64,000 nt of DNA from Arthonia radiata (Eukaryota > Ascomycota > Arthoniomycetes > Arthoniales > Arthoniaceae). Position 1 is the stretch's first letter. Every line of letters begins with the position of its first letter. The position numbers and the translations under genes were made by a program. The stretch is taken from the NCBI GenBank assembly GCA_002989075.1, contig PSQN01000005.1:1873241-1937240 (forward strand), in the 5' to 3' direction. The notes under the pieces are model-generated. The model worked only from the letters and a program-made list of their open reading frames with translations, searched no databases and was not told the origin of the DNA. Shown piece after piece: positions 16,708-59,901 of the stretch.

Positions 16708-16850
16708 GCGTATTCAGAACGTAAGCCATATAGCCCGAGCGTCCTAATTTCTTAGTAACTTACCGTAAATTTCTAGACTAGCTATTTATAACTATATTAT
16801 TGCTATCGCTCCTACTTTTTCTATCTACTTTTAGCTAAATTAAAGCTAGT
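16708..16850 (+). repeat. Left terminal inverted repeat of the island
   Basis: It pairs with 59,750-59,899. The outermost ~65 bp match with only transition-type differences, such as TATAGCCCGAG against TATGGCCCGAG; further in, the match is patchier. The inner limit is approximate. Confidence 0.8.
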
Positions 16851-16975
16851 TTTTTGTATATAGACCTCTAAATTAAGGTAGTAGTAATATTATATCTCCT
16901 AAATAAGTAAAATCTAGTATAAAGGGCGCGTATACCGCTATTACTAACGCTCAGCTAAAAAGCTCTAGTAATATT

Positions 16976-17483
16976 TATTGGAAATTAACCAACTAGCTGG
17001 TTAGCCGGAACCCTTAGGGGCCCGGAGTATCGGACAGGTCCTACCAGCTGTCTCGACCTAAAATAGAACAAGCCTTTTACCTAAAGGGTCGGGCCTAGTA
17101 GCCCGGGCTTAGGACAAAAAGGAGCATTGTACGACCCGTCCTAGACAGCTGGCCTATAGTTTAAGACAATACAGAATAAACTTAGAGACTAATAGTTTTA
17201 AATAGACAGAATTACTGTTTTATACAGTAAGTTACAGGTTATCTGGCCTCTATTAAAAGAACAGATATTTAGTAAGTTCTGTACGGACCGCTAGACTTAG
17301 ATATATAAGTTAAGATTCCTTTAGAGAATTCTAGCTAATAAGACAGACAATATAATAATAGCTTCTCCTTGCTATTAAGTATTGTACCTATATTAAGCCT
17401 AAGTATTATATTAGTTTTAAGCTAGTCTCGTCTTTCTACTCTTTATAGTAGTATTCTTCTTCTTTCCTACTACCTTTTTGATA
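16976..17483 (+). repeat. 5' LTR of Copia element
   Basis: It matches 21882-22389 over its full length; differences are mainly C/T and G/A. Confidence 0.93.
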
Positions 17484-20400
17484 GGTTATAAGCTCGGGTT
17501 AGCACCAATTCCTTTTAAATTTTCTTTTTAGAAAATATTTCCTCTACGACACCTATCGGCACCTCTAAACGATTCTATTACCAATCGACTCTAAATTTTT
17601 AGTTCAATTTAACTATTAGAACAGAATTTCCTTTTTTTTCGGAAATCTCTGACTATATATTCGGCTATAGACTCCTCTTATAAGATTTCTAAACTCAGGG
17701 GCTCGACTAATTGGAATATTTGGTCGATTCGAATAAAGGCTCTTTTAACTGAAAAGGGCTACGGTAATGTTATAATCCCCTTTTCCGGCTATTTAGCTAG
17801 AGATATTACTAAAGCTAGCCGCTAGAAACGATCGACAAGGGCAGCAGCCCTTATTCGACTAACTCTAGAAGACGGTCCTCTTATTTAAATAAAGGGGATC
17901 TATAACTCTCTAGAGCTTTAGAATAGTTTAAAAAGGTTATACGAATCAAAAGGTTTTAGTTCCGAGTTTCTAATTTGTAAGGAGCTCTTTAGCACTATAC
18001 TTAGTAAGGTAAAAAACCTTAAGCTTTACCTTGCTAAAATTAAACAATTAATGGACAATTTAGTAATCTAAGGACTAGCACTATCTAACAAGGTAGTAGC
18101 TGCCTACGTTCTTTACAATCTAACCTCCGAATACAAGCATACGGTGGCTATTATTAGCTAAAGCTACCGGCAAACGACTAGCGATATAAGTTTACAGGAC
18201 TTATTTAGTTAACTTATAGACGAGTCTCGCCGAATTTACGGTAGTACTCTAGTAGAAAAGATTTTTACTGTAATAGACAATAAATCGACGCAAAGGACCG
18301 GAGAACAATTAAAATCTCTAAGTAAAAACTAAGAAAAATGCCCCTTTTGCAACAAAAAGGGGCATAAACCGGCAACTTGTTGGAAAAAATATCCAAATCT
18401 CCGGCCAAATTTCAATAAAAGCTCTAAAAACACCGATTTTTCAATGTTTTCTGTACATAGTTCCAACCTATAAGAAGAACAATGCTTTATAGTATTACTA
18501 AACAGAGTTAATTATTCTACTAATTCTTAAATCCTCGATATAAGCTTAATAAGCTATATTTACTCAAATATTAACCTTCTAACAGATATCCGGCCAACTA
18601 ACCGAATTATTTGTTGAAGAGGGGGAAAGTTAATTCGAGCCTTTTAGATAGGCAAAGCAAAACTAATCTTTAAGAATAAAACAATTGTTCTAGATAAAGT
18701 TTTGTTTGTTAAGGAATTTAGAATTAACCTTCTAAGCTTTAATAAGCTTAGAAAAAGGGGAGGTAAGGTAACTCTTGGCTAAAATAAGCTAAAAGTTAAT
18801 TGAGCCGGACAACTAACTACCGAGGAGCGGTATATTAACGGCCTAATAGTAATAGAAGCTCAGACTATTAATACAGTCCGATCTCTCTACACTATTTCTT
18901 CGAAAACTGACCTTTGACATCAACGGATAAGATATATAGGCGAAAACGCCTTAAAACAGCTTAAAAAGGTTGCCCTAGAAACAGATTATTCGGACAAATT
19001 AGAAGATAATTACTAAATTTGCTTCGAAGCAAAGGCAACGGCTAAAGTTAGTTAAAAAACTCTAAACAAATCGGCTAATTATTTAGAAAAAGTCTACTTA
19101 AATATTTGCAGGCTAATTGTACCGCAAACCCCTTCTAAAGGTTAATTATTTACTAGCTTTATAGACAATTAAACCCGGTATACGACTACCGAGGTACTAT
19201 AGTCTAAAGATTAGGTTTTCGACGCACTATTTATCTATATTACTTAAAAAGAAACGCAGTCCGAGCATTCTTTTAAAAGACTATACTTAAACAACGCAAA
19301 AGAATACTAGGAAGGCCGGGTAAAATAGCTTCTAGAACAAAAAGAAGCTATTCTAACGATATCCATACTATATACTTTTTAGCAAAACGAACGAGCCGAA
19401 CGCTTTAACCGAACAATTGTTAGTAAAGTTCGAGCAATACTTTATACCGCCGGGCTACTCCAGATATATTAGGGTAAAGCGCTAAAAGCAGCTACCTATA
19501 TTTATAACAGGACCCCTTATACCGGATTGCTAGGGTTTATTACCCCGTACGAAGCAAAATACGGCAAAAAACCGGATGTCAGTACTATTAAAATCTAGAG
19601 CTTAGTTACTTATCTTAAAGAACCTGAATCAAAAAAGCTAGACGCTAGAGCAACTGTCTATATCCTTATAGGCTACAGATTGAACTAATATAAGCTCTTA
19701 GACCCCAATAATCGGAAGGTTTACTAGGAGAGAGACGTCTACGTTCAAAAAGGAAAATTTATTTGTAACCTACGAAGATCTACAGTTAATCGATTAACCG
19801 AGAGTATTTCTAAAGAGCTTGAAGAACAACTAGAAGTTAAGTTTAAAAATAAGCTAAATTTAACCGCTAGATCTTAAGATAATAGGGAGATACCTCTTAA
19901 TAAAGAAGGAAGTCCTTTATACGAGAAATAATATACCTTCCCTATATTTTAACAACTAGCGGACGAATCTAGATAAGAACTATACTAATCTAAAGCTCTA
20001 AACGAGTCTAACCTTTCTACCGAGTTAGATTATAGAAGTACCGAAGACCCCGGCCGAACAGACACCGATTACGCCCAGAAAATAGATTTTATATACAAAA
20101 ACGCTAACAAAATTTAGTTTAACAAGTTTTACAATAATCTAGAACAATACGCTAAACAGGCCTTAGTCGCAGTTACTAAAGAGCCTACTAATTTAAAAGA
20201 AATAAGGGTATCTAAGGATTAGCCTTCTTAGCTAGACACAATATAGTCGGAGCTTAAAGAGCTAGCTAACTAAGAAACCTAGATATTAATCGAGCTGCCG
20301 CCGGGTAGAAAGGCGCTAAAAGGGCGCTAGATACTAAAGATTAAGTACCCTCCAGAGGGCGAGCCGATTTTTAAAGTCCGCTAGATAGCTAAGGGCTGTT

Positions 20401-21881
20401 AGCAAAGACCCGGTCTCAATTTTATAGAGACCTTTACAAATATAGTAAATCTAATTACCTACCGGCTTATACTAGCCTTAGTAGTAGAGAAAGACTAGGA
20501 AATAAAGTAATAGAACGTAAAATTAGCTTATTCTAACGTAAAGTTAGACGAGATTGTCTATGTCGAGCAACCAACTGGCCTATCTAACGGAACTAATAAA
20601 GTTTGTCGAATAAAGAAGGCCCTTTACGGTCTAAAACAGGCCGGCCGATAGTAGAAAGCCTATCTTTAAGAATTACTAAGGGGCATAGATTTTGAACCCC
20701 TAGTATCCGATTAGTCGGTTTATATTTAAAGAACCAGAAAGCAGGTAATTTTAATCGTCTACGTAGACAATATATTAGCTGTATCTAATTCTACCGAAAC
20801 AATCTCTAAAATCTACTAGAAACTAAACAAGACTCTTACGGTTAAGGACTTAGGAGACGTTAGTAAGTTCCTAGAAATTAAAATTACCTAAGATCGCCCG
20901 GCAAAAACGATTCGCCTAGATCAATCGACTTATTTAGCTAAAATCTTAACCAAATACTTAAAGAAAAACGGCCGAATACTCGGAAAAATACCGCAACCCG
21001 TCGGCTCAAAATTAACACCGAATTCTAACTAAGCTAGCAGTACCAATATTTCTAATTATTAGCAACAAATTGGATCGATTTTGTATCTAACAACAAAGAC
21101 AAGACTCGATATTGCCTTTATAACTAGCCTACTAGCCCGGTACATATCGAATCCTAGTGAGAAGCACTGGAGAGTTTTAAGTAGCCTTTAGGCTTACTTA
21201 GATAAAACTCCTAACCTTAGCCTTTACTACAAATCTCCCTTAATAGACGGTATAACCGGCTATTGTAACGTAAATTAGAGAGAGAACCTCGGTACTAGGA
21301 GATTAACTACCGGCTATATCTTTCTACTTAGGAACGGAGCCCTTAGCTAGAATTTAAAGCTATAAAAAATAGTCGCCTTAAGCTCTTGTAAGGCCAAATA
21401 TATAGTCCTTAAAGAAGCTATAAAGGAACAGTTATTTATCTAATTAATTGCTACCAAACTGTCCGGGATTTTTAAAGAAAATTCGATTACTACCGTTTTA
21501 GCGGGTACTTTTAAAAAGTCTGCGGATAAAAAGACTCGGCGGGCTCCAACGCACCAGGCAAGCATATATTTGCCCGGGCAAGCCGGTTAAATTAGACCGG
21601 AGACCCCGATTTTACCGATAAAACTGTTACTTACCGACAGTAATTCGACAAAAGAACTTATAAAAAACCCTACCTTCTAAGCTAAATCTAAGCATATTGA
21701 TATACAGTATCACTATATTAGAGAAAACGTTCAGGCAGATTAAATAGAGCTTAAATACGTTTCTACAAAGAAACAATTAACAGACGGTTTAACAAAACCG
21801 ATCGACTTAGCTAAAATACTAACGTTTAAAACTTAAATTAGCTTATAATCTGGCTAAAACAACTAGTCGATTAAGAAGGTA

Positions 21882-22389
21882 TATTAAAAATTAACCAACT
21901 AGCTGGTTAGCCGGAACCCTTAGAGGCCTAGAGTATCGAATAGGTTCTACCAGCTATCTCGGTCTAAAATAGAATAAGCCTTTTATCTAAAGGGTCGGGC
22001 CTAGTAGCCCGGGTCTAGGACAAAAAGAAGCATTATACAACCTGTTCTAGACAGCTGACCCGTAGTTTAAAACAATACAAAATAGACTTAAAGACTAATA
22101 ATTTTAAATAAACGGAATTACTATCTTATATAGTAAGTTACAGGTTATCTGGCCTGTATTAAAAGAATAGATATCTAGTAAGTTCTATATAGACCGCTAA
22201 ACTTAGATATATAAGCTAAAATTTCTCTAAAGAATTCTAGCTAATAAGACAGACAATATAAAAACAGCTTCTCCTTGCTACTAAGTATTGTACCTATATT
22301 AAGTCTAAGTATTGTATTAGTCTTAAGCTGGTCTTGTCTTTCTACTCTTTATAGTAGTATCCTTCTTCTTTTCTGCCACCTTTTTAACA
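21882..22389 (+). repeat. 3' LTR of Copia element
   Basis: It ends in AACA, followed by the ATATT target duplication. Confidence 0.93.
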
Positions 22390-22394
22390 ATATT

Positions 22395-23849
22395 AAATGT
22401 TACTAGAGCCTTTATAGTAACTTACGCTATATAGTAGCGTTTAAAGAAAGAGAGTAGTAGATAATTAATAAGACAGTAGAGAGCTAGGCTTAGTTAAAAG
22501 AATAGTAGCGCCTTACTATAGTAAAGAAGAAGATATATACTAACTACAAAAAGGATAGTAAGAAGAAATCTAGCTAAAGTAAAGTACTATCGCTATAGTA
22601 GTCTTATTACTAATATAAGCTAGATACGTCTTATACTAACTATAAGCGTATATAAATAGAAAAGATAATAAAAGAGTAAATATAGCGTAAGACTACTATT
22701 AATATATCTAGTACTTATTATTAATAGCTAAATTATATAGAAAGCGAGTATATAGAGAATAAGGCAATTTAGAAAGACTTTAGCGACTATAATAAGAAGA
22801 AGACTAAGATATAGAGTAAGTAGTAATAGACACTATATCGCTATTATATTATATATTAGATTCTTATTAATTACCTTTTAAAAGTCTCTTCACTATACTC
22901 TATAGATAGTAACGAGTTTTAGTTATATAAGTACTTTAAGCTAGATACCCTAGAGATTATAACTAGTAAGTATCTTACTTAGCTTAATTATAATCTATCT
23001 TAGATAGAGATATATATTATTATTAAGTTAAATAATAAGGCTATATAAAAGTAGATAGTAACGTTAATATTAATCTAAAATTAGAATAATATTATAAAGC
23101 CTACTCTTCTATAAAAATTCTATAAGTATATAAAGTAGATACTTAATATACTAATTAAGGTAGTAGTACTATTAGCACTAAAGAAGACTCTATTAAAGGT
23201 AAGAGATAAGCAGTCTACTATAGTAATATTATTAACGTCTAATTCTTTATTTTACTACTATAATACTAAAATCAATTGTTAGATAGAGTATAAGCAAGCT
23301 TATTATAATAAGTATAAGAAGAAAAATAATATAGTAAAATCCTTACTAAGCTAATAGCGCTACTCTAGTAATAAGTATAAGAACTAGTATAGCTTCTACT
23401 ATATTAACTTTTAAAGTAATTACTATACTATTGCTTAGATATATAAAATATAGTAGAGCTACGCTATTATATTTAGCAGTCTTTAGAGTACTACTTTTAA
23501 TAATCTACTATAAGCTCTTTATATTTTTTAAATATATAAGTAGAAGCCTATTAACTATAAGATAAAGTATCTAAATAAGAAGATAGAGTAAAAGAAGTAT
23601 AATAGCTACTTTAATTAAATTATTAATAGCTATAAGCGTATAATTAAATTAAATATAATAGAGAAGATAGCTTCTATAATAGATTAATTTAGTAAGAGTC
23701 TTTCTTAGCGTATATCTATATCTATTTCTACTTCTACTTCTACTTCTACTTCTACTTCTACTTCTACTTCTACTCTAGCTACTTCTTCTACTACTTTAAT
23801 AGCAGTAGAGTTATCTTATAAATAGAGATTGCTACTACTATAGTTAGCC
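22395..23849. pseudogene. Second piece of the TIR transposon, decayed coding region
   Basis: It is extremely AT-rich and contains many TAG/TAA triplets in every frame, as left by RIP on Gln/Trp codons. Purine-rich runs suggest a former coding region on the plus strand. It ends in a TACTTC microsatellite that would code Ser/Thr repeats. I cannot name the transposase family. Confidence 0.45.
23735..23793. repeat. Microsatellite (TACTTC)n
   Basis: About eight tandem hexamers of CTTCTA/TACTTC phase lie inside the decayed region of the TIR transposon. Confidence 0.85.
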
Positions 23850-24321
23850 TGTTACGGGCACCAGCCCTAGACGGCCTAGCGTATACCCAAGCATCAACCA
23901 CCGCCAGTTATTTTAGCCCTACCAGCATTATTTCCGACTAAGCCTATAAACCCGCTATAGGCATTATTGAACAAGACAGCTATAAAAGTCTACGTTCCCT
24001 ATAAACCCGATATAAGCATTATTAAGATTAACGGATATAGAGAAACTTTCCTATGTACCTTAGACTATATAGCTAGACTAATAACTGACCTTAAAATAGA
24101 CTTTAGTCTATTAACTTAATATTTAAATATAAGTTCCTTAACTATATTTAAGTAACGTACTTTACCTTCTATTTACTCTAGTTAAGCCCCTCTTACCTTC
24201 TATAATCTATCTCGCCTCTTCTATCTTTTAGTCTCTAGTATGCAAGATACCCACTACTAAGGTCGATAAGTATACAAGATAAGTAAGCCTTAGTTCGGTT
24301 CTCCTAGCGACCGGTGTTATA
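23850..24321 (+). repeat. 5' LTR of Gypsy A1
   Basis: It starts TGTTACGGGC and pairs with 36530-37002. Its last ~290 bp also match, in reverse orientation, the LTRs of Gypsy A2. Confidence 0.92.
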
Positions 24322-26729
24322 CTTTAATAGACTCGCTACAAAAGTAGAGAAAGCAAATTAATTATATCTACTACTTTAGCACTTAATAGCCGTAACGCTG
24401 TAAATAGGCTGGCCAGCAAGATGGCCGCTACAGGTAAGATATTGAACGTTAATACTAAGATAAGTAAGAGCTTCTCCGGTAAACGTCCTGAACTTACTTT
24501 ATTTCTAATACGCTTGGCTGTATATTTTAAGACTTATAAGGATTAGTTCCCGAACAATAGTACTATAGTTTTGTTTACCGTATTCTATATAGATAGTAAG
24601 GTATATAAATAGTTTAACTTTTATCTTAAAGACTATCTCTATAAGGTACCTAACAAACGATAGAAAGAGACTAACGAGCTCTTCTCTAGCTTTACTGCGT
24701 TTTAGTAAAAGCTTCGATAGATATACGGGGATACAGATTCCAAACGTACTGCTGTACGTAAACTTAAGACACTCCGTTAAACAGAACCGACCAGCCAATA
24801 CGCCGCTGAGTTCCTGCAATATACTAACTAAACTAAATAAGATAAAGGACCCCTGGTCGATACCTTCTACGAAGGCTTAAAGAACTATATTAAGGAAATT
24901 ATCTATATCCGTAGAGAAAAGTTTACTGAACTAGAAAAGTTTATAGAACGAGTAAAGAAGATTGACGATAGCAACTTTGAAAGATAAATAGAAAAGAAAG
25001 GTAACCCTACTAATAGGTTCTATAGAACAAAGAATCAAGCAAACTTACGATAAGATCGAGGTAATCCAATAGAATTAGATTTTACAAAGCTTCGAGGGAA
25101 ACTAAACAATTAGGAACAAGAACACAGAATAAAGAACAAGCTATACTTGTATTGCAGAAAGCTAGAGCATTAAGTTAAAGAATACCGTTTCAAGAAACAA
25201 TAGTTTAATAGTACTAGTAGAAATAGGAATAACAATCGATCTTAGAGACCCTGTTTCCTACGACAATAGTTTAATATAACTACTTAGACACAGAAAGACA
25301 CTCACTAGGTTACTTCCAACGAAAAGTACAACGAGCTAAACTTATTTAATTTACATAAGAACTGGAATACGGACAGTAAGTTATAGAAAGAGACAAAGGA
25401 ACGACAAATAAAACAGGAACAATAAAATCTACAGGACTAAAATAATATTAACTGCACTATTCTAAGGTATTAGATATAAAGTACTATTGCATTATACAAA
25501 ACACTATCCTAGACCGTGTACTACAACAATAATTATACGATCTACGAATCTAACAAACTAGGGTCAAAATAATAGCCGAAGAAACTAATATTTCTAAAAC
25601 AAGGTTTGATATAAGAACTAGGCCTTACCCGAGGACGATTTAGGTTACCTTACCTAGAAACCTAAGGGGAATTTAAGAAAGAACAGACCGTAGAAGCTAA
25701 GCAAGATAGTAGCTATAATGCGTTATAGGCAAGATAACGACTTAAAGACAAAAATATAGATTCTAATAGTACAGAATTCTCTCTCGAGAACAATACTAAC
25801 TAGGAAGAGCAAACCCCAATCCGTTGGGAAGAAATAATATAGAGACTTTGTTAGTTGGCCTTTTATAAGGGGAAGTTAAGTACTAATAGAGAAATTAATA
25901 ATATTCTGGGATATATTTACTTACGCCTACGACAACTAGTAGACTACCTTATTAGAGGTCTAGAATTATATAGTCAGTACTAATATCTTTAATTAACAAT
26001 GTATAACTTATAAACGCAACGAGTTTTAACTAGCAATAGTTATATAATTAAAGTAGAGATCGTAAACAATAAACCAAACGTTATAATAAAAGCAGTATTA
26101 AAACACCTTACACAGGAATTCTTACAGCAAATTAACCGACAATAGGTTCCGGTACCTAAAATACTCTAGAACGTATACGATTAACAGGGAAAAGACTAGG
26201 CCGACTACTTCGAGGGTAGCAGTACCGGCCCGTTCAACGGTTAGACCCTCTAAGAGTCTAGCTCTATACGAGCTCGGCTACCTATAGAATATATCTATAT
26301 ACTCGGGCAACAATAAACTATAGAAACATTAAAATTATAATCGATTTAGACGTAATAAGCAACTTTATCTCAATATACTGCGTCGAGGAGTGTCAGATAC
26401 AAACACAAAAGAAGAAATTACTCTATACACTGTTTAGATTCTAAGGAGCAGAGAAAAGAGTTAACTACAAGACTTCGCCAATAGGTATAATAATTAAAAA
26501 TTATTAGAAAGAAATTACTTATAATATTGTAAATATTAACTAGTACTACGCCGTACTAGGTATACTTTAGTTATAACAATATAACCTAAAAGTAGATTAG
26601 AGAACTAAGAAACTTCTCTTTACTAGATACAAGTACTCTAAACAAGAGTCGTTCTACAGAACGGATACTCTACAAGCTATTTTTAGTAGTAAGAATAAGG
26701 AGCGCGATAAAGAACTTATACGGGTTAGT

Positions 26730-27003
26730 TGTTACGGGCGATGTCAAGAACAACTTATTAACTATACAGAGAAACAGATAGAATTCTAAAGCTATAGAAC
26801 AACTATTTAGAAAACTAGAACTGCTATTTAGTTAGTTAAAGCGGTTTGCCAAGCCTTTAACTTTTGCCTAGACAACCGAAAGTAAAGCTAGAAGAAGGTA
26901 AACTGGCAATTGATTGGTAGCAAAGAACAGTCTTCTTAATGCGGTAGGCGTGTTAACAGCTTTCAAAGGCGATAGTTAGTTGATCTAAGGCAGTTTCGTA
27001 ACA
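26730..27003 (-). repeat. 3' LTR of Gypsy B
   Basis: 274 bp, same length as 32453-32726; differences are nearly all transitions. Confidence 0.93.
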
Positions 27004-30000
27004 TTATTCCCCCCTTCGAGAAGCTAGTTGCCCTTAACCAGCGAGATAACAGAGGGTTTCAACTATCTAGGTCTTAGCTTACTCGGGTATTTCTTGTAGA
27101 AGCTCTTTAGTAGATTCTAAGCGTATTTAAAGTCTTTAATCGGGTACTATTTCCGGTCTTCGTTATAGCCGTACTATTTTACGCGGGCCTAGATTCGTTT
27201 TTAACTTTTTTATACGTTAATAATGTCTTTAACAACCTATTCGTTATTATTGTTAATTACGATAGGCTCTAGGTTGGGATACTTCTAGCCTTCTAAAGGC
27301 TCGTTAAGGTCTTTTAACAACATTAAGGAATTAAATGTTTTATAAATTTCTATTGAATCTAAAAGGTCTAGTGTATAGATATTTCCTCGACGGTACGTAA
27401 TTATATATAGTCCGATATACTTATAATTTAGCTTCTTTAATGGTCGCTTCGTTCGAATGTTCTTAGTTAACAGCTATACTTTATTCTTAACTTCGAAGGT
27501 TGTATTAGACCTCTGTTTATTAGCCTGCTCCGTTATCTTAAGTTAAGCTTATTTTATGTTTAATTTCTCTTCTTTCTACAATTTCTAGAAACAGTTGCTT
27601 ATAGCCTCTACTTTGTCCGATTAAACCCTCTTGTAGGCAGTTTAGTCCTAATTAACGGGTTCCGTTGTAGATTTAAAGCTTATCCGGGGTTCGTATCCGT
27701 AGGTTATACTAAATAGTAACATTTTGGTTGTTTCAGATACCGTAGCATTCGCCGCAAACTCGGCCGCGAGAAGCTTGTTGTACTAGTCGTCTTGATAGTA
27801 ATTTATAAATATTCTTAGATGCACCTCTATACCTTAATAAGAGATCTTAAACTAGCTATCGGTTTAGAGATAGTAAGCGGTTGCGAGCTTAATATTTACT
27901 CTTAAGCGCTTTATTAAGTGTCTTTAAACTACGCTGATAAACTGTAGATCCTAGTCAGACGTTAGAGACCTCGAGAGTCCTTATTTGTATTATATATTTC
28001 AGTAAATTAGGTTCGCTATTAATTCGGTATTCGTTTCGCTAAGTTTAAACTTATAGGGAAGAAATATTTTTAGCTTCGCTAATCTGTCAACTAGTATTAA
28101 GATAGCATTGTCTTTATTTAATCTAGACTTCGGTAGGTCGGTAACAAAATCTATGATATAGTCTAAGTTAGGCCTCTTAAGGGCCGGCAACGGCTAAAGG
28201 AGCCCTGCTAGCTTCTCGTTCCTTGGCTTAGTTCTCCTATAGACATAGTAATTGTCGACAAACTGCTTTATCTTTCTCAACAGTTAGAGAAACTAGTAGT
28301 GTCTAGCGAGCTAACGAATTGTGTTTCTAACTCCTAGGTGTCCTGTTTCTATTAAAGAATGTACCTTGTTAATTGCTTCGATAACGTAGAAACTAGACAC
28401 TACTAAGCGTTCTTGTACTAATAGCAGTTTATTAATATTTAAGCATAGTAGTAGATAATAGTCTTTAACGTTCCTATCGATTAAATCGTCTTCTTTATAC
28501 TTAGCTAGAGCTTTATAGATACGATCAAAGGCTTTATCTTTAGTATTCGCTTCTTTTATCAATTCTTTAAGTACCGCTAGAGGTTCGGCCTCGTCTTTTG
28601 TATTGATTAGGTATACTTAATAGTCTTCTTGAACCTCTGTAGACAGTTTGCTAGCGGGCAACAACGTTTAGAATATGTTAGGATCTTCTTTTGCTCTTAG
28701 GCCCGGGGCTCTTCTTATTAAAGCGTCTGCCTTCCTGTTTGCCGTCCCTCTACGGTACGTAATTTCGAAATTGAATACTAAGAGGAACTTAGCCTATCGG
28801 GCTTGTTGTCGAGTTAGTTGCTTAATTAATATAAAGTACTTTAATATCTAGTAATTAGTAAGGATTTAGGTTGGCTTATTAGTAGGTACAGACTACAGCT
28901 TCAGTCGGAATGTTTTAAAAGACTTAACGATCGCTAGTAATTCCTTATTATAGATAGCGTAGTTTAGCTCCGTAGAGTTGAGGCTCGAGAACTAGTAGGC
29001 TACCGGTCTTAGTTAGCCATCGTCGTTAAGTTGCGACAAAATACCTGCCGCTATCGAATCTAAAGAATCGTATTTTACAGATAATTGCTTGTTCGGACGG
29101 AAGTACGTTATAACTGGTTCTTTACTAACTTCCTCTTTAAGATGCTTGAAGGCTCTATCGTAGCTATCGTCCTACGGTCCGCTATTCTTCTTCGTTAGGC
29201 TGTTTAGTAGGTGAGCTATCTTACTAAAGTTCTAAATAAATTATCGATAGTAGTTGTAAAACCCTAGAAACCGCCGTATAGCAGTAATATTACCTTGCTG
29301 GAGTCTCTCCTAGTCTTTAATTGCTTGGACCTTTTTGGAATCTATTTTAGTTTCGATTAACGTAATAACTAGGCCTAAATACTTAATCTCTTGCTTGTAG
29401 AACTCGTACTTCTTAATGTCTGTATATAGGCCGATTGATCTTAGCTGTAATAAGACCTATCGAATATGTTCCTTGTGTTTCTTCTTTGACTTACTAAAGA
29501 TAAGTATATCGTCTAAATAAATCGATACGTACTTATTAAGCATATCTAAAAAGAAATCGTTTATAAATCGTTAGAAGGCCAAAGAAGCATTATATAGGCC
29601 GAACGGAACTACGTTGTACTTATAGTTTCTAAGGCGGGTAGCGAAAGTTGTAAGATTCAAATCTTCTTCTGAAGCTATTCTTAGCCGATAAAAGGCCTAA
29701 CGGATATTAAGCTTCGAGAACTACTGTGCTTTAGTAACCCTTACCAAGGTTTCCTCGATTAACAGAAGCGGATAGGAGTCTCTCTGAGTAACTACGTTTA
29801 GTCCTCAATAATTAACATACAAACGGAGTCTACCTCCTAATTTACGAACGAATAGGATCAGAGAGCTGTAATAAAAGTCGCTGGGCGAGATATACTGTTT
29901 AGTGAGGTTTAACCGTACGTAGTCTTTAATAAGACTAGCCTCTTTTGTTAGTATTCTCCTTAAGGGTTCTCGATAAGGTAATTTAGAGCCAAACTTTAGC

Positions 30001-32452: not shown

Positions 32453-32726
32453 TGTTACGGGCGATGTTAAGAACAACTTATTAACTGTACAGAGGAACAG
32501 ATAGAATTTTAAAGCTACAGAACAACTATTTAGAAAACTAGAACTGCTATTTAGTTAGTTAGAGCGGTTTGCCAAGCCTTTACCTTTTACCTAGGTAACC
32601 GGAGGTAAAGCTAGGAGAAGGTAAACTAGCAATTGATTGGTGGCAAAGAACAGTCTTTCTAATGCAGCAGGCGTGTCAACAGCTTTCAAAGGCGGTAGTT
32701 GGTTGATCTGAGGCAGTTCCGTAACA
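32453..32726 (-). repeat. 5' LTR of Gypsy B
   Basis: Followed by the TTAGT target duplication. Confidence 0.93.
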
Positions 32727-37002: not shown

Positions 37003-37007
37003 TAGCC

Positions 37008-46460: not shown

Positions 46461-46708
46461 TTTTGCCGCTTAGCTTCCTTTTTCTTGAGTTTAGACTCTA
46501 ACGTCTTTTAAACTCTTAACCTATGCTTCTTTGTAATAGAGTCAATCTACTTTAAATTAGCAGAACTAGGGGCGTATAGCTCTTCTTTATAGCTATAGAG
46601 ATTATCGAAAATAATATAAATTGTAGTGTCGGTAGATAGAATACCGTAATGCTAGAAACAGAAATTAAAATCGAAACGGAGGGTATTCTAGTTAAACTAC
46701 TAGATAAC

Positions 46709-47401: not shown

Positions 47402-50400
47402 CTTTTACGGATCGCCTTAAGCAACTAACAAACTAAGGTATATACCACTGTTCTTATAACTAACTTATCTAGAAACAAGACTCTATTAGAAAACAATTTC
47501 TCAGACAGTTCTTTAGAGAAAGAATAAACAAAGGTCCCTCGATACCGATCGTTTAGCCCAACTTTAGTACAGAGTGTACCAATCTCGTCCTTATACAGAA
47601 GTAAACGAGTAGAAAAACAGACAATACCACGAATGTACAAGTTAAGTACTCTAAACACTCTTAAACGAATCTTAGAGAACCTTCTTAAGAAAGCAATAAC
47701 CTAACTAGAATCTTTAAACTATCTTTAAAGGACTAACATGCCTTAAGACAAAGATGTTACTACAGTACGTAAAAACAATAATATTAAGATACCAGAATTT
47801 CGAGGAGACAGACAGTCTCTGTAAATATTTCTTAGCCTGTGTCGAATTAACCTTATTAACAAGCAAAGGGAGTTAGCCACTAATATAAAGAAGGTAATCT
47901 ATATAGAGTTATACCTGCGTAGAGATACACTCTTGTAGTTTTTACTACTCCTTAACGACTATCTTAATAACGGCAACGAAGCAAAGAAGAAAATAAAACG
48001 TGTATTCGAATCTTATATAGTATTTATAACGATACTCAAGGACATATATAAAGGAGAAAACTAGAAGCTTGAAGCATAATATAAGCTCGAAGGATTCAAA
48101 TAAGGCAATTTACTAGTAACATAGTACGCAGCCAAGTTTATGACGTACGCTTATATTACAGGATTCGACGAAGAAGCCTTAGTAGTTTAGTTCTACAAAA
48201 GACTCAACGAGGAGATAAAGAATCTTATGTTGTACGAGGAACGCGTAGAACGGCTTACGGACATCAAGTCTCAAGCAACGAGACTTAACCAACGACTTCG
48301 AGAACGGAAACGCGAACGAACTGGTAAACAGCCCAATTAGACACCGAACACGTCTCGACATCGCTACGACAACCGTCGTACCGAACCTATAAATCTTGAC
48401 GCGCTCTAGAAGAAAGGATCGTAACCCAGTCAAAAGAAATATAGAAAACTTTCGGAAAAGAACCGAAAGTATTAACTTGCTAATAACCTCTACCTTTATT
48501 GCGGTAAAGAGAGCTATAGAGCAGCCGAATGTAGATCTAAATAGAAAAGCCCGATTAAGAAGCTTTATGCTCTTAAACGAGGCGGATACAATAAGAAAAA
48601 CGTAGCCGAAGCGCTAGCGCAACTTGAAGCCTATACAATTAAGAATCCTAAGAATTCGTTAAATTCCCTTTTAGTATTGGCTAAATTAATATCGAAGGAG
48701 ATTACTAGCTAGAAACTAAGAATTAACTTAAAGAACGTATACAACATAGTTCTAATTAAGAGAATTGACTAAAATTGAATTTCGCCACGAGACAACTATT
48801 ACGAGCAGCTTTTAGTAGTGTTGGCTCGCAATTAAGAACAATAACTTTAAGAACTTAAGAATTACAATATTGAAGCTCTACAACAGCTTATAAGACTCAT
48901 AGCTATAGAAGAATTGGAAAACTAACCGATCAACGAATCTTAGGCCTTAGCAGCCAATAAAGAACAGCTTCGAGAAGAAGAGGAATCATTATTATCTAAA
49001 GAAGACGAAGAACAACCCGACTATATAGACGCAATATTACAATTACAAACGGCTAGGTTATATTTATAGGACCTAGAAGCCCGAGCAAGAACGTAGTTAC
49101 TTATTAATAGACTTAGGTTTATAGAACAAAGCTATAAACTAGTACTACGTCTCAATAATATTCTTATTAACACAACAACAGGAGTAGTAGTATTCCTAAG
49201 ATGATACGTAGTACGAGCAATTAGGACCAACGAAGAGTTTCGAGTATCAATCAAATAGTTTAGCGAACACTCAAATACCAATAAAACCTTCAGGAAACAG
49301 GTTATTGCTAACCACCACAATACGTAGAAACGGGCATACTTAGTATTATCGGGAAACGAATACGCCGTCTACAAACTTAAGGAAGAACAAGGACGACGGC
49401 GTCCAAGTCTCTACCCAAGAAGCTAGTAGAAACACTTTGTTTACTACTAGAAAAAGGACAGGAACGAATAAAAGTACTACTCAATAGAACCCTAGTTACT
49501 ATTATAATCGATTTAGGAGCAACAGGAAATCTTATCTACTTCAATACAGTATCCAAAATTCAGAAAAAACAATACAAGAAAGGATTCCTGTACGATCTGC
49601 AAGTCGCGAATAGATTTAAAAATATATATTAAAACGGTGCTATTACACACAAAGTCAGAACCACTATAAAAACAGCACAATTTTAAGAAAAAATTGTCTT
49701 AAACGTTATTAATACTAGAGCATATTAAGCAATTCTAGGAACACCTTTTCTAGATCGATATATACTACAATAGAGGAACGTACTAACGTTATTCCTAGGA
49801 CAGGAAGCAAGATAATACCGAACTATTTTGTTTATAGAAGATCTACAGAAAGATATTATCGACGAGTTAGTAACGGCTATATCAATCTATTATACTAAAA
49901 GACGTAGAGAGCGTGCCCAGGTAAGAGAAGTAGCCGAATTAATAAGCCTCGACACTCCTTATTCGGTATTACCTGAGAAATACTAGCAATACGAACGAGT
50001 TTTTAAAGAAGAAGCCGACAACGAGTTACTAAAATATACACTATAGGACCACAAAATTAAGTTTCTACCCGACTTAAATCCCAAGGACACAAAATTATAC
50101 CCAATGAGATTAAACTACCGAGACAAATATAAAATATACGTTAACAAACTCGAGAAGAAAGGATTTATTAGAAAATCGAAAGCTCTATTTGGATGCTCTC
50201 TATTCTTCGTTCCTAAGAAAGGAGACAAGCTCCGACCGGTTATCGACTATCGACCAATAAATTCTATAACGAAGAAAGACGGACACCCTTTACTACTTAT
50301 TAATAACGAAATAGACTCTCTTTAAGGAGCCTAATAGTTTACGAAAATAGATCTTCGCGGAGCATACAATCTAATCCGAATACGAGAAGGAGACGAGTAG

Positions 50401-53388
50401 AAAACAGCATTTAAGACGCCCTTCGGCCTCTATAAATACCTCGTTATACCTTTTAGATTGGTAAATGCTTTAGTAACCTTTTAACAACATATTAACAGTG
50501 TACTAGAGAAGCACCTTAACGAGTTTGTTACAGTATATATAGACGATATTATTGTCTATTCTAGAACGCTAGAGGAATATAAGCAATACGTTGTATAGAT
50601 ACTAGAACAGCTAAATAAACACAATCTTTGTGTTAAGCTCTAGAAATGTAAGTTTTATACACAGGAAACTAACTTCCTAGGATATATTATTTAGTCTAGT
50701 ATAATTAAAATGTTACTAGACAAGGTAAAAGCTATACTTAAGTAGTCTACCCTAAAAACTGTAAAGAAAGTATAATCCTTTCTCGACTTTAGAAACTTCT
50801 ACAGGAGATTTATTAATAGATACTCTAGAGTAGTCTTACTACTTACGAGACTTACGCAAAAAGATTTACCCTTTGTGTAGAGAAAGAATCAATAGGACGC
50901 GTTTTAGAAATTAAAGCAGTACTTTACGTCTGCACCAGTTCTAACGACCTTCAACTATAACAAGCTAACTACTATAGAGACAGATACATCCGACTACGCA
51001 ATTAAATTAGCATTAAGCTAACTAGATAACAAAAATATACTACATCTAGTAGCATTTTATTTAAGGACGATAATAGTACTAGAACTTAACTATAATATTT
51101 ACGATAAGGAGCTACTATTAATCGTCGAATTACTTAAATACTGAAAGTACTATTATGCAATACCTAAGCATTAAGTGTATGTTATTACTAATTATAAGAA
51201 CCTAACACAATTTACGACAACTAAGGTTCTTAACTAAAGATAAGTAAGATAGTTAGAAGAATTAGCATTGTTCAACATACAGATTATATATCAAAAGGGA
51301 TCGGAAAATTAAAGAGCCGACGCTCTTAGTCGAAGATTAGACTATATAGCAAACAAAACGCAAGTCTTATATATAATTCTATAAGAGAATTTAGACGGTA
51401 CGCTTAAATCTAACCGAGTCAGCGAACTCTTAATAATAATAAGAATTAAGGATTAGTCTAAAAGGCAAGAACTAATATAAGGGTACAAGAAAGATTAAAT
51501 AACGCAAGACATACGACTTAAAAATAAGAATAAACTTAAAACCTTTAAGGAAAAGATCTATATTCTATATAACATACAAGATATAGTTATTTAGGAGGCC
51601 TACGAAGAAGGTTACAGAGGAACAGCAACCACGATAGAGAAATTAATAAGAACGTACTTTATGCTAAAGTTACAAACAAAAATCGCAGACTTTATTTAGA
51701 AGTACGATATCTGTAAAAGAACTAAGTTAGAAAGACACAAGCCTTACGGCTTACTATAACCGTTATAAATTTCTAATGAACTATAGTCTTTACTAACAAT
51801 AGACTTTATTACTAACTTACTACTATTATTGGAACTAGGAAACACAACTAACTACGACACAATATTTGTTATTGTAGATCAATTTACGAAGTACAGATAC
51901 TTTATCTTTACGCGTAAGAGCGCAACAGCCTAAGAAACGGTATTTCTTTTATATAAATATGTCGTTACGCGATATAGGGCACCTAAAGAAATTATCTCAG
52001 ATAGAGATCGATTGTTTACTTTAAAATTCTGGGATGCAACTCTAAAACTTATAGAAACAAAAAGAAAACTATCAACAAGTTTTTACCTACAAACCGATAG
52101 ACAAACGGAACAACTCAATTAGACACTAGAACAGTTTTTGCGAGCGTATATTGACTACTTACAACTAATATAGATATAGTTGCTACTATTAGCAATGTTT
52201 ACGTACAATAATAGCGCAAGCACTACCGGAGAAACACCCTTTTACGTTAACTATAAGCAACATTTAACATTGACTAGAGACACTAGACTTTAAACTACGA
52301 ATTTAGAACTCGCCGACACCCTTTACAAGTACAGAAAGATTATTTACGACCACATAAAAATTGAACTGCAATAGATATCAGAGGGTATACGGAATACAGT
52401 AAATAAGTCTAGATCTAAGGGACTAGATCTTAAAGAGGGGGGTACTATTTATCTCTACAGACAATATATTAAAACAGATCGACTATACAATAAGCTCGAC
52501 TATATAAAACTCGGACTATTTAAGATCGTAAAGGTATTAGAACTAGTTACCTTTAGGTTAGAACTACTACTAACGATGCGTATACACAACGTCTTCTATA
52601 AGTTACTCCTTAAGCTAGCACCAAAAGAAGTACTAATAGTAAGCAAGAAAAAAGCAGAGGTACCTAACTTAGACAACATATACTAGGTAGAACGAGTACT
52701 TAGACACAAACAAACTTAAAATAAACTGTTCTATCTTATAAAGTAGAAAGAATATCTAAAGTTAGAAAATATATAGGAACTAGTAGAAAACCTATTGAGA
52801 GAACTTAAAAAGGACTACTACCAAATAAACCTAATGTAGCGAAGAAAGAAGCTACGCTACTAGGACAATAGACGGTACTAAGAATTATTACAAGGTTCTA
52901 AAGAAACGTTAAAACTAACGGCAGAATCTAAGTTACTAACAGTAGAACCCTTAGCTAAGAACTCTAGACTAGTATCTATAACCTACGACCCGTTCCACCG
53001 AGCCAAATTCTCCTCAGCACACATCAAGGTATCCCAACGAGCACGATCCGCAGCATCGCGCTTAGCCGCAGCTATCTAATTATTAGCATCAAGCAACCGA
53101 AGCTGACTCTTAGTATTCTCCTGCACTCGAGTACGAGTACGAGCAGTATTATCCTTAACTCTCTTCCTCTTTCGTTGACGGTCTTCCTCTTTAATTTGAC
53201 GCTTCTCCTTATAAAGCTCCTTACGACGCTCTTAAAGAAAGTCTATTACAACAGGTTAGCTACAAACAACGAAACAAACAAGACACGAACACACTATCCT
53301 CGCTTGTTATACGAACGTTATACACCGAACCAGACCGAGTGCAGGTAGCACAAGTAACGTCCTCTAATACTAGCTAACACTTCTTGCC

Positions 53389-53562
53389 TTAACGAAAATA
53401 GTTGGAACAAGGAGGCATGCTGTTTACGACAGGACGTTTAACAGCGAGAGAGCGACGAATAGCTTGTTCGAGATCTGTAGTAGAACGAGGCTTGTAAGAC
53501 TTACGAGGCTTAGATATACGGCTTTTAACAGCTAACTTAGTAAAGTCCTTCGAAGAAGACAT
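53389..53562 (-). CDS. Antisense accessory frame between pol and 3' LTR of Gypsy D (fossil)
   Basis: An ATG at 53562 opens 57 codons on the strand opposite to the element, basic and Ser-rich. It ends soon after a PPCSNYF segment, and further Cys pairs are visible in nearby antisense frames. The stretch 52,970-53,640 keeps more GC than the rest of the element. Antisense Cys-rich frames at this place are a feature I recall from fungal Gypsy elements; that is inference. It is treated as part of a broken element. Confidence 0.4.
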   Translation of the reverse strand: MSSSKDFTKLAVKSRISKPRKSYKPRSTTDLEQAIRRSLAVKRPVVNSMPPCSNYFR

Positions 53563-53663
53563 AACGGGCAACTTACAGCACAAGAAAAAGAAGAATAGGA
53601 AGCAGACAGCCTTTTAAGATCGAAAGGTTGATTGAGGACGAATTAACCCTAGAGAGGGGCTAA

Positions 53664-54356
53664 TGTTAGGATACGGCGCCAGTATAACCTAACCTGCTAT
53701 AGTTAGTATTATACAAATATATAAATAGCTAATTACGACTGTAGAGTTACGTAACTTGCTAAGACGTGTTAGACGTGCTAGACGGACTAGACCGTCTAGC
53801 AGCCCTAGCAGCTCTAGTACTACTAACCGTTACGTAACCTACTAAGACGTGTTAGACGTACTAGATGTGCTAGACCGTCTAGTAGCCCTAGCAGCTCTAG
53901 TAGACCTAGAGCACGAGCTATATTACAGACTATATAGATAGGATAACTATCTACCTTAGTAGATAGATATCCGTAAATTTAGATTTAGAATTAATATTAT
54001 CGTTTAATATTAACTTTAAGGTATTGAATCTAATTACTTCTTCTTGCCGTAACGCAACTAGTAAGCTACGAGCAATTCTTATAAGTATTAGCGCGAGGCA
54101 GGACTCTATAGCTACGTTAACGTGCAAATAGAGCGATCGAGTTCTAAGAGAGCTTTTCTGTGCGGCCTTAGTACAATCTTTCTAGCTTGTTTGTATTACT
54201 AGCTAAGTCCTTTGTTTAAGACTTATAGTTTGTCTCTTGCTTCCTTAACCTCCCCTTCCGAGTTAGATATCTTAATAATTATCTTCCTCCTAAGATTATA
54301 TTACTCTTGGCATAGAATAAGACCAAGCAAAGCGGTTACGGCCGTCCAGCGTTATT
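53664..54356 (+). repeat. 3' LTR of Gypsy D
   Basis: 693 bp, same length as the 5' LTR; differences are mostly C/T and G/A. Confidence 0.92.
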
Positions 54357-56548
54357 GTAACGTTATAGTTTTCTAGCTATAGAAGGCCAAGAAAAATAGG
54401 TTTATTAGAGAGGTCGGTAATAATAAGGTAGCAAAACCTTTTAATATAAGAGCCTATCTACAAGATAATACAAACAGTATAGGTAACCTAAGTATAAGTT
54501 CGAGCATTATCCTTAAAGTTTGTTAATATATAGGACTTACGGAGACGGTAGATTAGAAAGCCTTAACGTTACGCAAACTTTAAATTAATAAATCTAACGG
54601 ATAAATATCTAGAATTAAGGAAGATAGAAATAGAATAAAGTATATTCTCTATCTAAACTTAATAGTTAATGCGGGCCTAAATATTAGTATAAGTAAGGTT
54701 AAAACCCCTCTTATTATCTAAAAGAATGTTTTTAGCTTTAGTTAACAGAACTCGAAAAAGTAGATTTAAAGAAATAAGTGAGGGACGTCTCTATACGCGC
54801 CTTTGTATAGAGACTAGACATTTTCCGAGCCGGAAGGTAACTTGTTTTCAGGCTCTAGCTAAGAAACAGAGATCTCTTAACTATTAAGCTCGCCTAATTA
54901 ACCAAGGTTAGTAGAGCGAGCACAGGGACACTTGTTACGGTAATAATAGTCGGAACTATAAATAAGGCAGAGGCCTTATTCTTATCGACGCGTTCGCTTA
55001 GCGGAGGTAAGTCGACCTTTGTCGTTAAGATACATAGAAGTAGAACCGTAGTAATTGTATATGCTATTACTCTAGTTAGCTTTAGTAGGGGTTAACTGGA
55101 CCTAACGAACGGTACGGCTCTTATTAGCCTGGTTACCGTTACTTGGACAGAAAACATTAGAATTCGAACGGTAAACAGAAGCTAATCTAGAACCAGAGGG
55201 GTTATTTCCGTTAGACTGTATAGCGCGGTAACGACGACCTGCGCTAGCTTAGTAGATAATAGTAGTAAGTTCTTGTATAAGCTGCTTAAGCTTATAAGAA
55301 TAGTAGATAAGATAGCGAACGTTCTTAAAAGCTTTGTTGCTTAGGCTGTTTATAAGTAGTTATTTAAGTAGGTCTTAATCGACAATTTAGCTATCGTTAA
55401 CAAGCTCCTAGAAAGTAGAAAGGTGTTTGATAATAGATTTATTCTTCTAGCGGAGGAATATAAGAGATTAGCGTGCGTCCTAAGTATACGTTAGATCGCC
55501 GAAACGTTGATATAAGAGGCTAAGGAAGTTATTAAAGGTACGAAGGTAACTGACTTAGATACAGTTAATAAGATTAGAGATAAACTGTTAGAAATATAAA
55601 AGGGTAGGACTCTCTAGTATCGACAGTCTATAACTAATATAGGATTCTTTAGAAGGGTATCGATTACGATTAGTAATAAGCTTAATTTAAAGAGCATTGA
55701 TAAACTCTTGGTGCTTCTAAGGCTAGCGACTATCGAATTTCTTAGGATTAGCTGCGCGCTCGGACTTAGAGGCAGGTAGTTGAGGTATAGCGGGTAGCAA
55801 CTACGAACGTATAGCTGTATTAGAGGCTTAATTAGTAATATTGGAAGGGGTTGACTCTCGGGCGTAAGTATTGTTTATAGGCATAAAAGAGGAAGAATTA
55901 TGCGTCTCGTAGGGATTATAAGGAAAATCGGTTTAGAGTATATCTGCGACAGTTTCCTGTTTAGAGCGGAAAGATTCTCGGTCTATAGAACTCGAACGGG
56001 TTGCTTGAAGCTAGCTAACAGCCTCTACAAGCTCCCTTAGTCTGGTCTCGGTCTAGTATGTCTCGGACTGTGTATATTGTCGGAGGGCTGCGTTAAACTA
56101 ACGTTTTAACTCTTGCGCGGCTGCCGTAGTATCGCCGCCTAAGGATTAGAGATAGTCTTTAGCGCTTTAGAGCGTATTAATATAAACGGCTTCTTCGGAG
56201 GACTGTTTAAAGGGAAGAGGTATAGTAGAGGATAATTTATACCGTAGTATAACCAAGATTCGGAACGTAGGACTAAAACTCGGAACCCTTATAAATAGGC
56301 GTACAAAGCATTCTACGGAACTTAAATAAAGGAAGTACGACTTAGAAGTACTTAATAAGACTAAAAGGCCTATATAACCTAGTATAGCCTTAAAAGGAGG
56401 ATTAATATAATAGTCCTACACTATAGGTATAGACTAGAGCTAAGGATTAAGAACGACTAAACAATAAATAACAAGAAGGATTAATTGCTGTTGAGATTGT
56501 GTACAACAGACTGTAGTAGCCGCTACGGTAATTTTAATTTAATTTTAG

Positions 56549-56830
56549 TATAAGAGGGCGAACTAATAACAGCAGAAATACAATACTAAGAGCTCTATTT
56601 AATTATAAATACAAAGAGGATTAGATACAGAACAAGAATAAGAGGTCGGACGATGCCCCTATATATATTAAGAGGATCTAAATTACCTAATAGATGCGCT
56701 AAACTAGAAACAGGAAAGCTAGGGGCAATAGTGCGGTTGAGATGTGTCGGGAACGTTGGTTAGAAATTACGATAATGCGCCAAGCGCTCGGAGGCCTAGC
56801 GCTCGGAGGGCCTGAAACGAGTTTATAACA
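56549..56830 (-). repeat. 5' LTR of Gypsy C
   Basis: Followed by the TTTTC target duplication at 56831-56835. Confidence 0.92.
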
Positions 56831-58148
56831 TTTTCCTACCAATTATATACGTTCTAAAGTATTTTAGATACTAGAATCTATTATTAATTAATTTACTATA
56901 AGAATTTCTATATTAAATATTCTAGTACTACTCTTATTATAATATTTAGCTTATTATTTATAATCTCTACTTTAATTATATAACTATTACTAGTCAAAAC
57001 TCGTTATATTTATAGATTATATATTGTTAGTTAAAGGTATTAGTACTAACTATATAATTCTAAACCTCTAATAAGATAGTCTACTAGTCGTTATAAGTGT
57101 AAGTAAATATATCTTAGAATATCGTTAATGTCCTTATTAGCGCTTAACTTTCTATCGTAAAAGGCTAACTAATAAAGTCTCTATATTATTTCTTATTAAC
57201 AAATTAGAGTTTATTGCTTCTAGTTAGTATTGTTCTCAAGAGAGGATTTTATACTATTAGAATCTATATTTTTGTCTTTAAGTCGTCGTCTTACCTATAA
57301 CGTATCGTAAATACTATCTTACTTAGCTTCTACGGCCTATTCTTCCTTAAATTTCTCTTAAGTCTTTAGATAAGGTAATCTAGACTGTCTTTGAGTAAGG
57401 CCTGATTCTTATATTAAATCTTGTTTTAGAGATATTAGTTTCTTTAGCTATTATTCTAACTCTAGTTTATTAGATTTGTAAATCGTATAATTATTATCGT
57501 AGTATACGGTTTAAAATAGTGTTTATATAGTATAACGGCCTTTAGTTCCTATTGCCTCGGAATAGTACGGTTAATATTATTCTAGTCCTATAGGTTTTAT
57601 TACTCCTATTTTAGTTAACGTTCCTTTATTTTCTCTTATAACTCGTTGTCGGTGTCTTAGTTTATATATAACCCAAATAGGTTTAATTTTAGTAGGAGTC
57701 CTAAGTCTTAGAGTGTATTATAGGGTTTCGCTAGGTTAGTTATATTAAACTGCTATCGTAGCAAGCAGGGTTTCTAAGATTAATTGTTATTACGTCCGCT
57801 TCGTTCTGTAACATTAAACTATTGTTTCTTAGAACGGCATTCCTTAACTTAATGCTCTAGCTTTCCGCAATACAAGCATAGCTTGTTCTTCATTCTATAT
57901 TCTCTTTTCTAATTGTTTAGAAACTAGTTCTTGTGAGTTCTAAAGTATACAGCTAGGCGTATCAAGAATAAAGTAACTTCGGAACGTTTACCTAAGAAAC
58001 TCTTTTTTATTTTAATGTTAACGTTTGATATCTTACTTGTACTAGCTATTCTGTTAGCTAACCTGTCTGCAGCGTTGCAGCTGTTAAGTATTAAAGTAGT
58101 AAATATAATTAATCTACTTTCTCTACTTTCGTAGCGAGTCTATTAAAG

Positions 58149-58597
58149 TATAACGCCGGTCGCTAGAAGAACCGAGCTAAGACTTACTTATCTTATATAC
58201 TTATTAACCTTAGTAGTAGGTATCTTGTATACTAGAGACTAAAAGATAGGAGAAGCGAGATAAATTATAGAAGATAAAAGGGGCTTAACTAAGTAAATAG
58301 AAGGTAAAGTACGTTATTTAAGTATAGTTAAAGAACTTATATTTAAATATTAAGTTAATAGACTAAAGTCTATCTTAAGGTCGACTATTAGTTTAACTAT
58401 ATAGTTTAAGATATATAAATATGTTTCTTTATGTTTAATAGTTATAATAGCTTTTCTATTGCGTTATCAAGATTCTATTACAATATAGCGACGTTGTCGA
58501 CGTCGCTATATTAAAGTTATCGGGTATCCTATATAATACTCTAATAAGGCTGACTGCGCTCAGCCTTGTACTAGCCGGACGTAGTAAGACTGTAACA
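58149..58597 (-). repeat. 5' LTR of Gypsy A2, with two hairpins
   Basis: It contains a perfect 13-bp stem with 5-nt loop (58482-58512) and an 8-bp GC-rich stem with 6-nt loop (58546-58567). In the other LTR copy the first stem is eroded. Confidence 0.92.
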
Positions 58598-58602
58598 CTA
58601 TA

Positions 58603-59899
58603 TGTAAGTATATTAAGTTAAATATAAAAAAGTTGTACTACAATACTAAATTACAAAATATATAGTAAAAAATTGCTCTCTATTTTACTCTTATTCTATT
58701 ATTTAACTTTCTTTTAAAGACCTCTATATTTCTATTAAATATATAGCTATTAGTACTAAAGTAGAATTACTTTACTATATATATATTATAGTTAGCTTTC
58801 TATACTGTATATATAAGAAAGGCTTTAAAGTTACTCTAAAAGAATAGCTAATTATTCTAAAAGTAACAATAAATCTAAGTCTTTAAGATAAAGATAAGCT
58901 TAATTAAGCTATAATTAGATAAATAGAAAGGTACAACTTAATATAGCAACTATAGTACTTAATAGTATCTTTAATATAATAATTTAAATAAGATAAGATA
59001 TTATTAAGATATAATTTACTTTATTCTTTAAAGTAGAGACGTAGGTAAGGTATTAGCTTTATTACTATCTATTATAGAATCGCCTTAGTATTATAGTATC
59101 CCTTATAAATACTAGTATACGGTAGGTAGCTATTAGTAGAGAGTACTAGTAGAGTACTTTAAGTATTACTATAACTAATATTACCTTAATACTACGTTAT
59201 ATAACTAATATAAGTATATATATAGCTTTACTAGCTAGTTATCTGTTTAAATAGTAACTTATTAATAAATACTAGCTACTCTATAGTATAGTATTGTATA
59301 TCTACTCTTTATATCTATTATAGCTTCTAGTTATATAGTATAATCTACTAAGTAATCTTATTTAATATACGCACCTCTTTTAGTACCTAGCTTACTATTA
59401 GCTAAGAAACATTAATACTATACTCCTTCTATATAAAGATATAAATCTTATTTTAGTAGACTTATAGATAGTAAGTATAGTACTCTAGTATATTGTCTCT
59501 TACTATAGTTATTAGGCTATATAGAGCTCTAGTCTTATAGAAGCGTATACAGTATATAGAGTTAAATGTCTAGAGATTAGTTTTAATATAGTAAATAGTA
59601 TATATACAGTAATAGTATTTAATAATAATTACTTAAGAGTACTATTAATACTAAAGAAGATAATATAGTATTAATTATAACACTTGATTAAAATACTAGC
59701 TATATTTAGGTATAATATTACTATTATTAGCCTAGAAGGCCTCTTATATTAATCTATAGCTTTATTTTATCTTAATTCAGAAGGCTTTAAATAGAATATA
59801 ACGGCAATAATATAGTTATAATTAAACAGTCTATAAAATTGCGGTAAGTCGCTAAGAAATTTGGACGCTCGGGCCATATGGCTCGCGTTCTGAATACGC
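58603..59899. pseudogene. Fourth piece of the TIR transposon with its right end
   Basis: 1.3 kb, very AT-rich, with stops in all frames. The right inverted repeat covers about 59,750-59,899. Confidence 0.5.
59750..59899 (-). repeat. Right terminal inverted repeat of the island
   Basis: Reverse complement of the left end. It keeps more CpG/CpA sites than the left copy, for example in GGCCATATGGCTCGCG. Confidence 0.8.
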
Positions 59900-59901
59900 T
59901 A

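Follow-up and report, generated by a model that had tools for sequence, protein, structure and literature searches.

A 43-kb AT-rich retrotransposon nest in Arthonia radiata very probably built on a single DNA transposon with terminal inverted repeats

How did a 43-kb block of AT-rich DNA come to lie in the GC-balanced sequence of Arthonia radiata contig PSQN01000005.1? We analyzed a 64,000-nucleotide stretch of this contig, hereafter the window (G000:C11:1873241-1937240, in a genome of 33.5 Mb and 16 contigs). Our results indicate that the island is very probably a nest on one old cut-and-paste transposon of ~3.5 kb with terminal inverted repeats (TIRs), which underwent repeat-induced point mutation (RIP) and was then layered by insertions of long terminal repeat (LTR) retrotransposons.

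The transposon and its nested insertions occupy 43,198 bp on the + strand (16705..59902). GC content is 0.33 between these borders, compared to 0.51 and 0.55 for the 900 bp that adjoin them. The composite RIP index, measured in 900-bp stretches, is -0.54 and -0.51 outside and rises to +1.51 and +1.49 inside. Both quantities step at both ends, confirming the change in GC described in an initial annotation of the letters alone. The left TIR (16705..16905, + strand) begins TTAGCGTATTCAG and is best kept over its outer 99 bp; the right TIR (59703..59902, - strand) ends CTGAATACGCTAA. In a self comparison, 16705-16803 pairs with 59902-59804 (86.9% over 99 bp), and gapped alignment extends the TIRs to ~200 bp, with 158 of 191 aligned bases identical. 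The termini read TTAGYG...CRCTAA, with TTAG at every end. We ruled out a Helitron or LTR origin for this outer repeat, as it is inverted and accompanied by a duplication of 2 bp.

Four pieces of transposon residue remain within the island, all on the + strand. These are s1, the 5′ end (16705..16975), which is collinear with sibling copies elsewhere in the genome; s2 (22395..23849); s3 (37008..37479); and s4 (58603..59902), which comprises the 3′ part and the right TIR. Three LTR elements lie directly in the transposon: A (16976..22389, + strand), of Ty1/copia type, with target-site duplication (TSD) ATATT; D1 (23850..37002, + strand), of Ty3/gypsy type, with TSD TAGCC; and D2 (37480..58597, - strand), a reversed member of the D1 family, with TSD CTATA. 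Subtraction of A, D1, and D2 with one duplication each leaves 3,498 bp of the 43,198 bp. The initial annotation gave 3,492 bp, which is the same figure minus the terminal TTA and TAA. Its three direct insertions stand, but the full count of LTR elements is six, with three at deeper levels. D1 carries element C (26730..32726, - strand; TSD TTAGT), D2 carries E (42255..56830; TSD TTTTC), and E carries B (46709..54356, + strand). Using Pfam on pieces translated with X at stops, we detected RVT_2 and Pol_BBD in A, RNase H and H2C2 in both D1 and D2, RVT_1 and RNase H in C, and RVT_1 in B; C and B are taken as Ty3/gypsy. For E, a single piece searched in three + strand frames yielded no Pfam domain. 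TSDs are exact for 5 of the 6 elements.

The nesting by itself gives the order of insertion: the transposon came first, followed by A, D1, and D2, then by C and E, and last by B. At the site where D1 carries C, D2 is unoccupied, and D1 is in turn unoccupied at the site where D2 carries E. The paired LTRs of the elements differ by 23-65 transitions and 0-2 transversions. As transitions dominate these differences, they bear the mark of RIP.

Genome searches with the transposon residue revealed siblings on three contigs: a copy on C12 (778.8 kb and below), two on C2, which we call C2a (C2:1245219-1261501) and C2b (C2:2056191-2098816), and a left end on C4. The C12 and C2a copies are uninterrupted across the sites of A, D1, and D2, and each duplication is present there once, base differences aside. 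No other evidence joins the four residue pieces into one element as strongly as these paralogous unoccupied sites. They support the earlier proposal that a single transposon is the base and oldest layer of the nest and, together with the TIRs and LTR pairs, bear out the view of the island as one TIR transposon with LTR elements nested in it. C2a is itself a nest of 16,283 bp, containing elements of A and D type plus a lone A-type LTR; subtraction at match borders reduced it to 3,482 bp. C2b is a 42,626-bp nest with A- and D-type elements, in which 16,486 of the 42,626 bases match LTR elements of the window. It keeps s1, s2 to offset 874, and the right end of the transposon; searches recovered neither s3 nor most of s4. 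In the C12 copy, similarity stops at s4 offset 755 and the right end is missing.

A 33-base end pattern detected 12 ends genome-wide, compared to 0 for the reversed control, which rules out chance pairing of ends. They comprise five pairs (the window, C2a, C2b, and two short elements of 441 bp and 415 bp) and two single ends (C4 and C12). Thus the genome holds other copies with the same ends, as the initial annotation had anticipated. Nests are present in 3/3 long two-ended copies and 0/2 short ones, with the caveat that these numbers are small and the short copies are small targets. In the window the two TIRs differ by 17 transitions and 16 transversions, compared to 21 and 5 for C2a and 10 and 3 for C2b. 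Such divergence fits a base older than the LTRs, although the TIRs of a pair may have differed already at insertion.

We also observed several features of the siblings themselves. C4:1120206-1121574 and C2:2055620-2056988, 1.37 kb that include flank and left TIR, are 99.8% identical. This identity is odd for a RIP genome, and may reflect either a recent duplication or an assembly overlap. The C2b region (C2:2055201-2101200) contains direct tandem duplications of 5.76 kb (89% identity) and 2.26 kb (88%). Inside the C12 sibling, at ~C12:776681-777397, there is an insert of ~718 bp whose 81-bp ends are inverted repeats (80%); it may be a short DNA element nested in this copy.

We determined the length of the target duplication by scanning 14 boundaries (shifts -6 to +7) and lengths of 2-9 bp, 112 combinations in all. 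Only two fit all five two-ended copies: a 2-bp boundary outside TTA and the TA built into the ends. The dinucleotide outside TTA/TAA matches on both sides in 5/5 pairs and differs from copy to copy (AA, AT, GA, AG, and TT); in the window it is AA, at 16703..16704 on the left and 59903..59904 on the right. The target duplication thus comprises 2 bp of free sequence, with TTA falling within the TIR, which revises the earlier description of TA as the flanking duplication. The outer 33 bases show a mean agreement of 93% within pairs, with no transversions, and of 77% between pairs, with a mean of 3.2 transversions. Among 20,000 random end pairings, 23 agree as well as the real ones, a descriptive figure since related copies share descent. 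The pattern suggests that both ends of each lineage change together, as expected if one transposase binds both. Elsewhere in the window, at 10637-11446, we noted an 810-bp AT-rich element (GC 0.26) with ~150-bp inverted repeats that are 90.5% identical, ends TTAC...CTAA, and AA on both flanks. It may represent a further family whose ends are of TTA type and whose duplication is 2 bp long.

The TA at the inner edge of TTA...TAA, present in all five two-ended copies, is what a Tc1/mariner-type element (pogo or Fot1-like) with a TA duplication would leave, and relatives of this type could carry long TIRs. However, under a TA duplication the agreement of the bases beside TTA in 5/5 copies would be coincidence, and the variation of these bases between copies is evidence against Tc1/mariner. 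Translations in 30 frames also contained no such transposase, a weak point given the damaged frames. We regard a Tc1/mariner origin as very improbable.

The ends were compared with those of other superfamilies. A 3-bp repeat, as in the TWA duplication of PIF/Harbinger, was found in 0/5 copies at either candidate boundary. For hAT (8 bp, with variants of 5-7 bp), repeats of 5-8 bp were found in 0/5 copies over shifts -6 to +7. Mutator-like elements duplicate 8-11 bp; repeats of 8-9 bp were present in 0/5 copies, 9 bp being the longest length scanned. The duplication of piggyBac and Kolobok elements is TTAA, and a 4-bp repeat occurred in 0/5 copies at either candidate boundary. CACTA elements typically terminate in CACTA. 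The duplication of 2 bp, with five different dinucleotides, falls in the 2-4 bp range of the CMC group (CACTA, Mirage, Chapaev, Plavaka), but the TTAGYG...CRCTAA termini are not those typical of the group (CACTA, TGT, or CATCA). As given in the available text of two sources, duplications measure 2 bp for Plavaka A, 2-3 bp for Plavaka B, and 2-4 bp for CMC (PMC12730594, PMC4482050). Plavaka termini, as described in the same portion of the first source, are TGT..ACA or CATCA..TGATG (PMC12730594); the short duplication is thus alike and the termini unlike. The Pfam Plavaka profile had 0 matches genome-wide at E up to 10. ISL2EU, in the available portion of its description, duplicates AT inside AATT (PMC4482050); its duplication is likewise 2 bp, but only 1/5 of our pairs has AT.

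To ask what the transposon body had encoded, we aligned the bodies of the window, C12, and C2a copies and counted transversions by coordinate phase, using transversions because RIP does not make them. In s2, transversions from 22495 on fell 14, 9, and 38 in the three phases (chi-square 23.6), and 0 of 200,000 simulations were as extreme. Of the 6 alignment gaps in s2 that lie away from piece edges, 5 have lengths divisible by three. Since transversions concentrate at one codon position, s2 was probably once protein-coding on the + strand, with codons starting at coordinates divisible by 3 and the signal clearest from ~22495. The frame is now riddled with stops (33 TAG and 16 TAA in 488 codons). 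By coordinate arithmetic it would extend in phase into s3 and s4 across D1 and D2.

The internal DNA could instead be captured host sequence, with no transposase gene, in a non-autonomous or composite element. The short members of 441 bp and 415 bp, which share the ends of the long copies, would suit this explanation, as would the lack of a transposase domain in the 30 frame translations. However, the same body recurs in several copies and s2 carries codon-like constraint, both expected of an autonomous lineage, and we consider captured host sequence unlikely.

Several results weigh against a transposase-coding founder with a free 2-bp duplication, and we consider them together. The chance of matching dinucleotides, 9.7e-7 from flank composition for the boundary outside TTA, applies to a boundary picked post hoc and is nearer 1e-4 over the 112 combinations scanned. 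The 33-base pattern was derived from known ends and detected none beyond these; a 16-base pattern allowing 2 mismatches lacked discrimination (14 matches versus 21 in the reversed control). B has no exact TSD in the scan; by eye its flanks are ATAAC/GTAAC, which differ by one RIP-type change and are a probable TSD. The bin at which periodicity starts in s2 was also chosen post hoc, and adding the first bin gives 16, 16, and 42 (chi-square 18.3, p ~1e-4). There is no clear periodicity in s3 (2, 5, 6) or s4. Pfam recognized no transposase domain in the 30 frame translations, which cover the window and siblings with stops as X, and two predicted structures were unusable, with mean pLDDT (predicted local distance difference test) scores of 35.3 and 36.1.

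Other searches for the transposase gave similar results. A PDB profile search with four aligned frames recognized no family. We disregarded its lone match, a surface glycoprotein (E 0.35), and the lone Pfam match (E 0.41) was spurious. A protein search of the genome itself returned 8 matches, all in copies already known, and no undamaged relative. Thus, the earlier statement that the transposase could not be assigned to a family held across Pfam, PDB, and two structure predictions. Pfam did recognize pieces of 5/6 LTR elements with like damage; in the best-matched control, D2 (GC ~0.24), it recognized three families at E values from 2.5e-6 to 6.1e-5, one of which passes the Pfam cut-off. As reverse transcriptase is better conserved than transposase cores, failed recognition is no proof of novelty, and with such heavy frame damage a known transposase type could be missed. 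A bolder reading is that the base element represents an undescribed eukaryotic DNA-transposon lineage, with TTAG-type ends, a free 2-bp duplication, outermost bases that match within a copy but vary among copies, and a transposase that current Pfam families do not cover. The dead copies of this lineage would be recurrent LTR landing sites, as in 3/3 long two-ended copies. We view this as doubtful.

Our preferred model, an old founding transposon later buried by retrotransposons, would proceed as follows. A ~3.5-kb DNA transposon with ~200-bp TIRs beginning 5′-TTAGYGT would have entered GC-balanced DNA, duplicating two target bases. Before insertion, the site would have had one AA where its flanks meet, and would have read ...TTTGCCAA then GCCTTTTG...; in flank letters, the junction would be ...GGGATTTGCCAA joined to GCCTTTTGCCAGCC..., again with a single AA. 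The body probably encoded its own transposase, if the protein coded in s2 is taken to be one, and the element presumably moved by cut and paste. Judging from composition, RIP would have hit the transposon as repeated sequence. Ty1- and Ty3-type LTR retrotransposons would then have entered it and others entered those, with RIP acting on all layers, to leave a 43-kb AT-rich nest bounded by TIRs. Insertions may gather at the locus because silenced DNA tolerates or attracts them. The proposal in the initial annotation that the transposon insertion itself seeded heterochromatin is a conjecture.

A different account would make the island a regional centromere, or an AT-rich domain with some other function, and not a nest formed by chance. 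In fungi, centromeres often consist of AT-rich RIPed nests, and the island (43.2 kb) and C2b (42.6 kb) are alike in size. However, contig C2 alone holds two such elements, and the insertions account fully for the anatomy. The LTR families are also scattered: first-look candidates numbered 421, 197, and 73 for three queries, the best 40 per query were scored, and the scored copies (best 40 of 421 and best 40 of 197) lie on 14/16 contigs each. We therefore hold a functional domain to be highly unlikely. With LTR families so widespread, most nests in the genome presumably have other bases than this transposon.

We also looked at the DNA around the island. When 16404-16704 is joined to 59905-60204, one - strand frame is open for 156 codons, and the other five for 19-54. 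The open frame may be chance, or the transposon may have inserted into a coding stretch or next to one. To the left of the island, 2748-7879 is an ordinary gene region, with frames containing Rpr2, GNAT acetyltransferase, and hexokinase domains.

Together, these data make for an unusually clean example: all of an AT-rich island in a RIP genome goes back to one founding insertion whose borders are exact, with the sequence of events defined and unoccupied sites as proof. They also provide a usable diagnostic for an unclassified DNA-transposon family, namely TTAGYG...CRCTAA ends and a free 2-bp duplication. Should the nests in 3/3 long copies prove typical, the family would offer a way to probe whether RIPed DNA transposons attract or merely tolerate retrotransposons.

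Nests of this kind are already known, since clusters with a DNA-transposon base have been published for Mycosphaerella graminicola (PMC4522978). The available part of that source describes 78 putative nested clusters of 7.5-63 kb, each with 2-7 different elements, a RIP signature, and, in the case shown, GC below that of the flanks (PMC4522978). Eight clusters >20 kb had a DNA-transposon or unclassified base and verified TSDs of primary LTR insertions (PMC4522978). Our island likewise has TSDs and a RIP signature, together with unoccupied sites in siblings. It differs from the clusters described there in base family and genome, and the ends of the base, its 2-bp duplication, and the sibling unoccupied sites are worked out here. 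In Leptosphaeria maculans, according to the portion of the source at hand, AT-isochores are AT-rich mosaics of transposable elements degenerated by RIP that alternate with GC-balanced gene regions (PMC4210507). The island is a similar RIPed, AT-rich mosaic, but one that resolves to a single base insertion.

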